Shown here in pieces: positions 51,256 to 54,671 of a stretch of 63,383 nt of DNA. The first letter of the stretch is position 1; each line of letters starts with the position of its first letter. Both the position numbers and the translations under genes were made by a program. The notes under the pieces are model-generated. The model did no database searches and was not told the DNA's origin. It saw only the letters and a program-made list of their open reading frames with translations. Source of the stretch: Baaleninema simplex PCC 7105 (lineage in GTDB: Bacteria; Cyanobacteriota; Cyanobacteriia; Cyanobacteriales; Geitlerinemataceae). The stretch lies in assembly GCF_000332355.1 (NCBI RefSeq), contig NZ_KB235958.1, positions 3,338,875-3,402,257 on the forward strand. The letters are read 5' to 3'.

Positions 51256-52302
51256 CTACCCCTGTTCCCTATTCCCTGTTCCCTGTTCCCTCTTCACTGA
51301 TAACGCGCCGCCGCAACTCGAACCACAGCCAGCGGTACATCCGTAACAGTAGGATTCGGTTTGGACGGTTTCGATCGCATCGAGGCTTCCGCGATCGAGC
51401 AATTTGGCGATCGTTAGGGGTTCGCCGTTTCCGTCAACGGCGGAAACCTCTTCCATTTGGTTGAAGTCGCAGTCGTAGAGGTTTCCGCGATAGTCTACTG
51501 AAAGCTGGTTGCGACACATCAACCCGTCTACGGTGTCGGGGTTGAAGTTCTCCTCGAGGAATCGGGTATAGGGGCGATCGAGGTTTTGACGCTGTAAAAA
51601 CTGTTTGGTGCGTCCGATGGGAAGGTTGGTAATTGTCAGTAAGCGATCGAAGTCGATTCCGAAGTGCTGGCTGAGATGCTGTTTGTAAGCTTTTTCGAGT
51701 CCGGCTTGTGCGGGAGGAAGGGAAAATTTATCTTCTGAGGTGGGAATCGGCGGGTTGTAGACTAAATCCAATTTCAACTCGGAATTTCGACCGTATCCCA
51801 GTTCGTTCAACTGTTGTAAGGCGCGAATCGAACTGTTGAAGACGCCGCTTCCGCGCATTTTATCGACGTTTTCGGCGAGGTAGCAGGGGAGGGAGGCGAC
51901 GACGCGAACTCGGTGTTTGGTGAAGTATTCGGGTAAGTCTTCGTAGCCGGGAACGAAGAAAATGGTGAGGTTCGATCGCACGATAACTTCTTTTCCGGCA
52001 TTTCTGGCGGCTTCGACAAGGGGTTTGAAGCCGAAGTTCGTTTCTGGCGCACCTCCGGTTAAATCGACGGTTTCGATTTGGGGAAAGCGACGAATGGCTT
52101 CGATTAACTGGTTGCAAACTTCTTCGGTGAGTTCTTCGGTTCGGTTAGGCCCCGCTTCGACGTGACAGTGGGTACAGGCGAGGTTGCACTTTTTCCCGAG
52201 GTTGATTTGCAATACGGTAATTTTCTGTTTGGTGAGGGGGCGATCGAGTTGGAGATCGAACGGGGTAATGGCAACGGTTTTAGATGTCGGCGTCTGTACC
52301 AT
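51256..52302 (-). CDS. arsS: Arsenosugar biosynthesis radical SAM protein ArsS
   Basis: 348 residues from MVQTPTSKTVAITPFDLQL; a longer frame from 52407 would overlap the upstream gene. The [4Fe-4S] motif CNLACTHC is at 39-46, followed by VDLTGGAPETNFGF and the ArsS/DUF3641 C-terminal domain with GLMCRNQLSVDYRGNLYDCDFNQM and CYGCTAGCGSSCGG. In Synechocystis, ArsS transfers a 5'-deoxyadenosyl group to dimethylarsenite to give DDMAA, the arsenosugar precursor. It is last in the arsM - adenine deaminase - arsS run, 76 bp after the deaminase. The last ten residues (REQGTGNREQG) and the stop are encoded by GGGAACAG repeats. Confidence 0.93.
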   Translation of the reverse strand: MVQTPTSKTVAITPFDLQLDRPLTKQKITVLQINLGKKCNLACTHCHVEAGPNRTEELTEEVCNQLIEAIRRFPQIETVDLTGGAPETNFGFKPLVEAARNAGKEVIVRSNLTIFFVPGYEDLPEYFTKHRVRVVASLPCYLAENVDKMRGSGVFNSSIRALQQLNELGYGRNSELKLDLVYNPPIPTSEDKFSLPPAQAGLEKAYKQHLSQHFGIDFDRLLTITNLPIGRTKQFLQRQNLDRPYTRFLEENFNPDTVDGLMCRNQLSVDYRGNLYDCDFNQMEEVSAVDGNGEPLTIAKLLDRGSLDAIETVQTESYCYGCTAGCGSSCGGALSVKREQGTGNREQG

Positions 52303-52378
52303 AAAGCGATTTTTGACTGTGGTTTTCGGGTCGGGTAATTTTGTGCAATTCTGGCGAGAAGTCGAGGTTACGCGATCG

Positions 52379-53395
52379 CTATGCGATTTCGGATACTGAA
52401 GCCACAAAAGCGTCGATTTCCTCGAGATAGGTTTGTTGGATATCGTCGGGTAAAAACGATGCTATAAAGGAGTTTTTTGCCAACTGTACGATGTCCGCGC
52501 GGCTGAGGTTTAATCTGGTTTGGACTGCCTCGAAGTTTTCAAGGACGTAACCGCCGAAATAGGCGGGATCGTCGGAGTTAACGGTGACGCACAAGCCGCG
52601 ATCGAGCAGTTGTTTTAAGTTGTGCTGTTCGATAGATTCAAACACGCGTAATTTGATGTTGGAGAGGGGACAAACGGTTAGGGGAATTCGATCGCGACGC
52701 AGGCGATAGACCAATTTTTCGTCTTCGAGACAGCGGACGCCGTGGTCGATTCGAGACACTTTTAGTAAATCCAAAGCCTGCCAAATATATTCCGATGGAC
52801 CTTCTTCTCCAGCGTGAGCAACGGTTAGGAAACCTTCGCGACGGGCGCGATCGAATACGGTTTTAAATTTTTTGGGAGGATGTCCGAGTTCGGAGGAATC
52901 TAACCCGACTGCCACGATTTTATCGCGATAAGAAATTGCTTGTTCGAGGGTCTCCATTGCCGCATCTGCACTGAGATGGCGCAGGAAACAGAGAATTAAG
53001 TTCGATGAAATGCCAAATTCGGTTTTCGCGTCGGTTAAGGCGCGATCGATCCCGTTCAAAACCGTTTTAAATTCGATTCCGCGATCGGTGTGGGTTTGCG
53101 GGTCGAAAAAAATCTCGACGTGACGCAGGTTTTGACGAACTGCTTTTTCTAAATACGCCTTTGTCAACTCGTAAAAGTCGCGTTCGGTCTGCAAAGCGTT
53201 CGTACCCGCGTAGTAAATATCGAGAAACGACTGTAAGTCTGTAAATTGATAGGCGTTTTTCGCGGCTTCGATCGATGCAAAGGGTAGTGAAATTCCGTTT
53301 CGCTGGGCGATCGCAAACATTAATTCTGGTTCTAGGGTTCCTTCGAGATGAAGGTGCAGTTCGGCTTTGGGAATCTCGCGAAGAAAAGCGTTCAT
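52379..53395 (-). CDS. Adenine deaminase (adenosine deaminase superfamily, Aah1-like)
   Basis: 338 residues from [19 protein letters not shown] (an upstream codon at 53425 is less likely). Metal and catalytic motifs are [40 protein letters not shown] and [13 protein letters not shown]. The HAGEEGP and [11 protein letters not shown] forms, together with [12 protein letters not shown], match proteins shown to be adenine rather than adenosine deaminases (fungal Aah1, Pseudomonas type). It converts adenine to hypoxanthine. Placement between arsM and arsS, with gaps of 94 and 76 bp on one strand, suggests a link to adenine released when arsenosugar is made from DDMAA. Confidence 0.88.
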
Positions 53396-53489
53396 CGTGA
53401 ATTCTGTGTGAGGAGAAATCGGCAAGAGACTTGTTATCTATTATTGTATATAGATTTTTCGATCTTACCGATCGCCTAAAGTTAGAGGC

Positions 53490-54671
53490 TTAACAACATC
53501 CTGCGCCGTCACCACAAACTGGCGCGTCGTTGGTGTGGGTTTCTCGATAGTTTGCACCTTTGGTTTCTTGGGGACTGCGAACGCGCGATCGCTTGCAGTC
53601 GAATTTTTTCGCCTTGTCTAAGGGAATTTCTTGATGGGGTAAAATGGGAATCACATCGTTTCGATAAGGACTTTTGGAATCGGTTAAAATTTGGAAGGTT
53701 TTATCGCAAACCGCCATCCGCTGACCGCGATGGTAAACGTGGCCGTCGTCGTCGAGGACTTGTTTCCAAGGTCCTTTGTACACCACTGCTCGATTGCGTT
53801 CCCAACACTCACCGTCTTTTCCTTTGTAGGCGCGAACGGTCATCGATCGAAACTCAATCCCATCGATAACTTGCCAAGGTTCTTCTTGACGAGACAAAAT
53901 TTCGACACCGTAAAATCCCGCGTCTTCAAACATTTCTAAAAATCCATCTTCTCGGAAAGCTCCAGAAATGCAGCCGCTCCACAGTTCTGGGTTGTCGAGA
54001 ATTTTTTTTGTGGGTGTTTCGTCGCAGACAATATCCGAAATTACGGCACGTCCGCCCCGTTTTAAAACGCGGAAAATTTCTTGAAATAACTGCTGTTTGT
54101 CTTGGGGACGAACCAAGTTCAAGACGCAGTTTGAGACGACGACATCGACACTGTTATCGGGAATTGCAGGATCTTCTCGTCGCAGGCGATCGCGCTCGGA
54201 TTCTAAGGCGGCTAAATCCTCGAGCGTTTTGACCGGATGCGCGTCGAGCCAAGTTTGAAGTTTGTCTAAATTTAAGGCTAAATCTTGAATTTTACCCTTG
54301 ACAAAATCGACATTTTGATATCCAATTTCATTGGAAATTTCCGTTTGATATTTCCGAGCCAGCGCCAACATGGTGTCGTTGAAATCCACACCGATAACAC
54401 GACCTGTTGCGCCGACTTTTTGCGAGAGAACATAGCAAATTTTTCCCGCCCCCGATCCCAAATCCACGACAGTTTCGCTCGGATTGACGTAACGAGAGGG
54501 ATCGCCACATCCGTAATCTTTTTCGAGAATTTCTTCGGGCAAAATATCCAAATACTGAGTGTCGTATTCCGTGGGACAACACAAACTCGCCTCAACCTGT
54601 TGCGCTCCAGCTTGGTAGCGATCGAGAACTGCCCGTTCGATATCGTAGGACGTGGGGGTGGTATCGGTCAT
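53490..54671 (-). CDS. arsM: Arsenite S-adenosylmethionine methyltransferase ArsM
   Basis: 393 residues. The SAM site is VVDLGSGAGKICYVLSQKVG, followed by GVDFNDTML. Conserved arsenic-binding Cys are in SLCCP, YGCGDPSRY, VSNCVLNL and SGCISGAF, matching the four Cys of studied ArsM proteins. A C-terminal domain with RAYKGKDGECWERN and a Cys-rich tail (DAPVCGDGAGCC) completes it. ArsM methylates trivalent arsenic to dimethylarsenite and other species. It is first in the cluster with adenine deaminase and arsS. No ArsR-type regulator is adjacent; a divergent SRPBCC gene starts 168 bp away. Confidence 0.95.
   Translation of the reverse strand: MTDTTPTSYDIERAVLDRYQAGAQQVEASLCCPTEYDTQYLDILPEEILEKDYGCGDPSRYVNPSETVVDLGSGAGKICYVLSQKVGATGRVIGVDFNDTMLALARKYQTEISNEIGYQNVDFVKGKIQDLALNLDKLQTWLDAHPVKTLEDLAALESERDRLRREDPAIPDNSVDVVVSNCVLNLVRPQDKQQLFQEIFRVLKRGGRAVISDIVCDETPTKKILDNPELWSGCISGAFREDGFLEMFEDAGFYGVEILSRQEEPWQVIDGIEFRSMTVRAYKGKDGECWERNRAVVYKGPWKQVLDDDGHVYHRGQRMAVCDKTFQILTDSKSPYRNDVIPILPHQEIPLDKAKKFDCKRSRVRSPQETKGANYRETHTNDAPVCGDGAGCC

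Follow-up and report, generated by a model that had tools for sequence, protein, structure and literature searches.

Locus layout and gene identities

A stretch of 63,383 nucleotides from Baaleninema simplex PCC 7105 (hereafter, the window) holds three consecutive genes whose predicted products are an ArsM-like arsenite methyltransferase (arsM), an AAH-type adenine deaminase (AAH) and an arsenosugar biosynthesis radical S-adenosylmethionine (SAM) protein (arsS) (Table 1). An original prediction, made from the letters of the window, had placed the three on one strand, 94 and 76 bp apart, and had described the deaminase as embedded in an arsM-arsS unit. Open reading frame (ORF) coordinates confirmed the order, the gaps and the shared minus strand, and the embedding is borne out by a block kept in a second genus (see below). 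The arrangement by which an arsenosugar operon is recognised, arsM and arsS adjacent on one strand, was thus found with AAH in between.

Table 1 Features of the arsM-AAH-arsS unit in window coordinates.
Feature	Position	Strand	Description	Basis
arsM-like arsenite methyltransferase	53490..54671	-	393 aa, first gene of unit	homology and position
Hairpin in the arsM-AAH gap	53418..53472	-	10-bp arms ATCGGTAAGA / TCTTGCCGAT	
Predicted AAH-type adenine deaminase	52379..53395	-	338 aa from ATG	NF006850, PDB 3ou8 group, motifs
arsS, arsenosugar biosynthesis radical SAM protein	51256..52302	-	348 aa from ATG	TIGR04167

ArsS scored 423 bits against TIGR04167 (cut-off 300), which places it in that family, and its translation holds the radical SAM CxxxCxxC motif as CNLACTHC together with a match to Radical_SAM (PF04055). 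It was the only ArsS in the genome above the TIGR04167 cut-off, and the AAH was the only A_deaminase match. The ArsM-like protein scored below the curated cut-offs of NF040538 (317 of 500 bits), NF008823 (185 of 263 bits) and NF038099 (129 of 400 bits) and so falls outside these families; the name arsM for 53490-54671 is given by homology and position only. A consensus scan listed no minus-strand promoter-like or terminator-like sites in either gap, which is weak evidence on co-transcription. The window ArsM type was nearest to the arsinothricin ArsM model, yet genes of this type also accompany arsS in sister genera and in Cupriavidus; at other cyanobacterial arsS loci the ArsM-like protein is of another kind, ~320 aa long and ~26% identical to that of the window.

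The middle protein resembles adenine deaminases

The AAH protein scored 553.6 bits against NF006850 (cut-off 419), within the family, and 402.2 bits against TIGR01430 (cut-off 216.55). NCBI names NF006850 adenosine deaminase, and that it covers the AAH type is our own reading. The closest solved relatives were the chain shared by PDB entries 3ou8, 3pan, 3pao and 3pbm (440 bits over residues 4-315), followed by 3rys at 373 bits, with the next chain at only 137 bits. We take the first four entries to be the adenine deaminase Pa0148 of Pseudomonas aeruginosa. HLHLEGT, HAGEEGP (beginning at AAH residue 194), DHGVR and a 10-residue motif are common to Pa0148 and the window AAH, a 12-residue motif stands at residue 272, and the metal-site and catalytic motifs are as in the solved relatives, which places the protein among them. 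Unlike that of Pa0148, the window gene lies between arsM and arsS.

In adenosine deaminases the Asp two residues past HxH has a role in ribose binding. The window AAH has Glu18 at this position, where 6n9m and 6n91 have Asp and 4gxw has neither. At eight positions that are near-invariant in 41 relatives (17, 39, 59, 67, 76, 79, 90 and 92), the window AAH and its homologue in the second genus carry other residues; the divergent rows L048-L050 and the duplicates L040 and L051 were left out of this count. None of the eight lies in HAGEEGP, DHGVR or the 10-residue motif, and Leu17, within HLHLEGT, is Leu in the 3ou8 chain as well. Alignment with the 41 relatives and the 3ou8 chain ruled out altered motifs in the embedded AAH. 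From the NF006850 score, the match to the 3ou8 group, the motifs and Glu18, we read the protein as an adenine deaminase and not a nucleoside deaminase, in agreement with what had been proposed.

The original prediction had also allowed for action on the nucleoside itself. The substrate would then be 5'-deoxy-5'-dimethylarsinoyl-adenosine (DDMAA), which we take to be the name of the ArsS product; AAH would convert it to its inosine form, and a phosphorylase would then split that form. The position of AAH between arsM and arsS would suit such a reaction, and 5'-modified adenosines are substrates of some enzymes in the wider adenosine deaminase superfamily. The residues gave no support to this alternative, however, as the departing positions lie outside the three motifs named above, one of them (Leu17) is shared with the 3ou8 chain, and residue 18 is Glu, not the Asp seen in 6n9m and 6n91. 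Activity of a yeast AAH adenine deaminase on adenosine was undetectable (PMC6281700, Table 2), and the phosphorylases of arsS clusters described below score best as, or carry annotation as, phosphorylases of 5'-methylthioadenosine (MTA) rather than of inosine. Deamination of the nucleoside is therefore very improbable.

The three-gene block is conserved in a second genus

Window positions 43500-63383 were compared with a draft assembly of a second genus of the family (G292), apparently Geitlerinema sp. BBD 1991-9, with the same match found in stretch L077. The trio matched one continuous stretch of a single G292 contig (C85), while secA and the ORF after it matched contig C43, the next large upstream ORF, judged by eye to be GGDEF-like, matched contig C74 along with the regulator on its far side, and other parts of the compared region matched contigs C112 and C108. 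The trio has thus remained intact in both genera although its surroundings on either side have moved, and the arrangement appears to be more than chance because the block is continuous in the second genus and the neighbouring segments lie on other contigs. The gaps in G292 were 81 bp (arsM-AAH) and 71 bp (AAH-arsS), identity to the window was 81.7% for arsM, 78.8% for AAH and 82.4% for arsS, and the ratio of non-synonymous to synonymous substitution rates (dN/dS; Nei-Gojobori, two sequences) was ~0.10, ~0.12 and ~0.14, respectively. In a tree of AAH proteins built without L214 (partial) and L215 (divergent), the window and G292 sequences grouped together (SH-aLRT 99), G681 joined them next (97), and the three lay among other cyanobacterial AAHs.

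The hairpin in the arsM-AAH gap has a counterpart at the corresponding position in G292, whose arms carry one compensatory and one wobble change and whose loop differs. Its motif, a pattern drawn from these two sequences, was found in 2 of 82 AAH upstream regions, those of the window and G292. An intrinsic terminator was considered and rejected for this hairpin, as the consensus scan did not list it and no T run follows it.

In Geitlerinema sp. BBD 1991-9 (L077) the order and strand of the trio are as in the window, with ~79-82% identity and the gap hairpin kept. A VTT-domain-like ORF (L077:12042-12746) overlaps the end of arsS there, whereas the window ORFs next to arsS showed no match to it. 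VTT (DedA/TVP38-like) ORFs recur near cyanobacterial arsS: homologues were present in eight other of 79 stretches (L104, L112, L116, L120, L121, L130, L135 and L137), with VTT_dom confirmed for two L120 ORFs, and annotated TVP38/TMEM64 proteins flank arsS on Pseudanabaena and Acinetobacter plasmids. The ORF at 49891-50664, a weak YiiX-family match, was rejected as a member of the unit, as its homologous DNA in G292 lies with secA on a contig other than that of the trio. Two plasmids carry annotated YiiX/YebB-like proteins near arsS, but these match the window ORF only weakly; a YiiX-type ORF after the window arsS is probably a coincidence. Two repeats were also seen in the comparison with G292. 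The 3' end of arsS (window 51256-51300, tail REQGTGNREQG) is written in a short repeat, of which 51260-51299 matches several unlinked places in G292, and ~110-125 bp at window ~55598-55722 match seven unlinked G292 places at 77-81% identity, representing a dispersed repeat.

MTA phosphorylase as a candidate source of adenine

Arsenic is adenosylated by ArsS (PMC12159101), and adenine for AAH could come from the adenosylated product. The genome encodes one strong MTA phosphorylase, MtnP (C4:2815711; NF005657, 567 bits, over the cut-off). No MTA/S-adenosylhomocysteine (SAH) nucleosidase was found among the PF01048 matches of the genome, the second of which was a weak hopanoid-phosphorylase-like ORF. 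A TIGR04283 glycosyltransferase gene over the cut-off was located at C4:2748838. In Synechococcus elongatus, MtnP cleaves 5'-deoxyadenosine (PMC8102628). The MTA phosphorylase reaction is reversible, and P. aeruginosa adenine deaminase has been used as the adenine-consuming coupling enzyme in an assay of it (PMC13316717). Rhodospirillum rubrum fed with MTA yielded mainly hypoxanthine, yet no adenine deaminase was recognised in this species (PMC4958253).

MTA-phosphorylase-family genes unexpectedly recurred in the arsS clusters of Cupriavidus, Burkholderia glumae and Acinetobacter portensis, with a divergent one in a distant genome of the phylum (G018). On a plasmid of Cupriavidus sp. KK10, one strand carries genes for an ArsM-like protein, an AhpD-like protein, ArsS, an FAD oxidoreductase, a VTT-like protein (by eye), TIGR04283 and TIGR04282 proteins and an MTA phosphorylase (L248:10544-11398), the last of which scored 277 bits against TIGR01694, just over the cut-off. 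In B. glumae BGR1, mtnP-TIGR04283-TIGR04282 lies ~6 kb from arsS (mtnP at L263:5493-6374), and on a plasmid of A. portensis mtnP (L262:8999-9862) follows the arsenosugar genes ~6.5 kb beyond arsS and is on the other strand. The arsS cluster of G018 contains an MTA-phosphorylase-like ORF (L139:9349-10206) that scored 129 bits against TIGR01694, below the cut-off of 275, together with TIGR04169, TIGR04282 and TIGR04283 genes, all over their cut-offs. Among plasmids, arsS was found in 52 records and mtnP (E <= 1e-20) in 73, of which 60 were listed; among the matches listed, both genes occurred in 47 B. glumae records, one Acinetobacter and one Cupriavidus. B. glumae is one species, so that a fair plasmid count is three of six arsS genera, plus G018. 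Like the window genome, these plasmids combine arsS with a gene that would free adenine from an MTA-like nucleoside; their clusters hold the phosphorylase and glycosyltransferases with no listed deaminase, whereas the window has the deaminase in the unit and mtnP unlinked.

From this recurrence we tentatively propose that base removal in bacterial arsenosugar synthesis may be a phosphorolysis by MTA-phosphorylase-family enzymes, cluster-encoded or housekeeping MtnP, which would yield activated arsinoyl-ribose-1-phosphate for the TIGR04283/TIGR04282 glycosyltransferases, and that the window lineage may have added AAH, making the step one-way. We hold this general scheme to be less likely than not. 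Speaking against it, MTA-phosphorylase-like genes were present in only 2 of the 88 arsS stretches scanned (L139 and L248), many of which were short and among which the Acinetobacter and Burkholderia mtnP genes did not fall, and none was listed in the annotated arsS regions of Hymenobacter, Thiodictyon and Pseudanabaena.

Adenine might also come from SAM-derived by-products other than DDMAA, namely 5'-deoxyadenosine from abortive ArsS turnover or SAH from ArsM, and AAH would then clear adenine from these. SAM is used by both ArsS, as a radical SAM enzyme, and ArsM, as a methyltransferase; the S. elongatus MtnP acts on 5'-deoxyadenosine as noted, and adenine deaminase is coupled to SAH nucleosidase in a commercial assay of ArsM (PMC8649762). 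However, such by-products come from many enzymes, so that they leave the position of AAH in an arsM-arsS unit unexplained; an SAH nucleosidase was lacking among the PF01048 matches; and the recurrence of MTA phosphorylase genes with arsenosugar glycosyltransferases fits a pathway step. A by-product origin of the adenine is accordingly improbable.

A proposed arsenosugar unit with a recruited deaminase

We propose that arsM-AAH-arsS is an arsenosugar unit in which MtnP frees adenine from DDMAA and a recruited AAH deaminates the adenine, a reading to which we give an even chance. ArsM would methylate arsenite, and ArsS would add the 5'-deoxyadenosyl group to dimethylarsenic to give DDMAA, an MTA-like nucleoside. 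MtnP, encoded elsewhere in the genome, would split DDMAA into adenine and arsinoyl-ribose-1-phosphate. AAH, presumably a standard adenine deaminase that the ancestor of the two related genera recruited from purine salvage, would turn adenine into hypoxanthine and ammonia. Because the MTA phosphorylase reaction is reversible, destruction of adenine would drive the phosphorolysis of DDMAA forward, and the base would be recycled; placed between arsM and arsS, AAH would be made when the pathway runs. The proposal draws on the gene identities, the conserved block, the presence of MtnP and the TIGR04283 gene and the recurrence of mtnP in arsS clusters, all read from sequence, and from these we infer co-transcription of the three genes, action of MtnP on DDMAA and a benefit of AAH.

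In the excerpts of PMC12159101, PMC12608789, PMC10456119, PMC8649762 and PMC12607644, no link of a deaminase or an MTA phosphorylase to bacterial arsenosugar synthesis was found. An adenosyl nucleosidase has been proposed for an alga in a review (PMC10456119). No bacterial gene for the loss of adenine from the ArsS product was assigned in the literature found, which is weak evidence of novelty as the main ArsS papers and most subscription journals lay outside the search.

Distribution of AAH and arsS

Within the phylum sample, arsS was present in 129 of 292 genomes and AAH (E <= 1e-70) in 16, of which 13 were over the model cut-off. Among Cyanobacteriia in this sample, arsS occurred in 126 of 139 genomes and AAH in 8 (row counts; one of the eight below the model cut-off). 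All eight AAH-bearing Cyanobacteriia also had arsS, which is no enrichment, and in the seven besides the window genome, all drafts, arsS and AAH fell on separate contigs. Outside the class, eight genomes bore AAH, none of which was among the arsS-positive rows. Other samples, which partly overlap, contained AAH in 35 of 388 genomes of the class, 46 of 388 of the order and 2 of 14 of the family, and an arsS match was absent from two of the 14 family genomes. A role of AAH as a general arsenosugar gene was ruled out by these class counts and by the rarity of co-location (2 of 82 loci).

Several observations weigh against a part for AAH in the pathway. Both arsM and arsS were near AAH at only 2 of 82 Cyanobacteriota AAH loci, the window and G292, which represent one lineage; of these loci, both flanks reached 5 kb or more in 54 and 1.5 kb or more in 72, so that an arsS past a contig end could escape, and the below-cut-off AAH-like genes of G021, G041 and G197 were read within <=1.5 kb and lie outside the 82. 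A genome-contig scan with a single protein gave three loci, one of them useful. Conversely, AAH was absent from 47 wider arsS regions and from 30 arsS loci read with 1.5 kb on either side. In G300 and seven genomes of a sister genus (g2), arsM directly precedes arsS on one strand with no AAH in between; AAH is thus dispensable. Two g118 genomes had arsS with no arsM nearby in the stretches examined. In the window genome mtnP stands away from the unit, and the surroundings of the 82 AAH loci contained no MtnP homologue. Among plasmids, AAH relatives (E <= 1e-20) occurred in 96 records, and none of the 60 listed was any of the 52 arsS records. The recurrence beside arsS and arsM that the original prediction called for therefore held in one case, in another genus of the same family, and failed at the remaining 80 of 81 other AAH loci, so that refutation by this criterion was avoided only by a narrow margin.

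Neighbouring genes bear on the reaction of AAH itself. An hpt homologue lay 17-75 bp from AAH on the same strand in 7 of 80 other AAH loci, and an XDH or XdhC homologue lay within <=3 kb in 18 of 80, five of the 18 by XdhC alone. No locus had both kinds, so that 25 of 80 had hypoxanthine-using genes near AAH and the remaining 55 had neither. Neither hpt nor XDH/XdhC was found in any of the 47 arsS regions. The contrast between the two neighbourhoods is suggestive and would fit adenine to hypoxanthine as the AAH reaction; the hpt and XDH seeds were, to the detriment of the proposal, picked after the AAH neighbourhoods had been viewed.

The same data may be explained if AAH serves purine salvage or nitrogen scavenging in general, its gene having inserted between arsM and arsS, where it is a passenger or at most co-expressed and has no specific role in making arsenosugars. 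At 80 of the 82 loci AAH and arsS are not neighbours, and 25 of those 80 have hypoxanthine-using genes near AAH; AAH also appears to work without ArsS in the eight genomes outside the class, it is the sole A_deaminase match of its genome, and its predicted pocket motifs are unchanged. Against this, the trio stayed joined across two genera while both flanks moved, with the hairpin kept in one gap; a chance landing inside an operon, and its persistence, would be less expected, though one event cannot exclude it. We regard a salvage bystander as a serious but less likely explanation. Removal of the adenine lost from the ArsS product, which the original prediction had assigned to the deaminase, stands as the best reading at the even chance given above, but not as the work of a general pathway gene: the locus is a new variant of the arsM-arsS operon.

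Implications for arsenosugar synthesis

That the window unit contains a deaminase, and that MTA phosphorylases occur in other arsS clusters, suggests that arsenosugar synthesis releases adenine as the free base. Both kinds of enzyme are open to direct test, and the wider value of the locus lies in its pointer to MTA phosphorylases as candidate base-removing enzymes.

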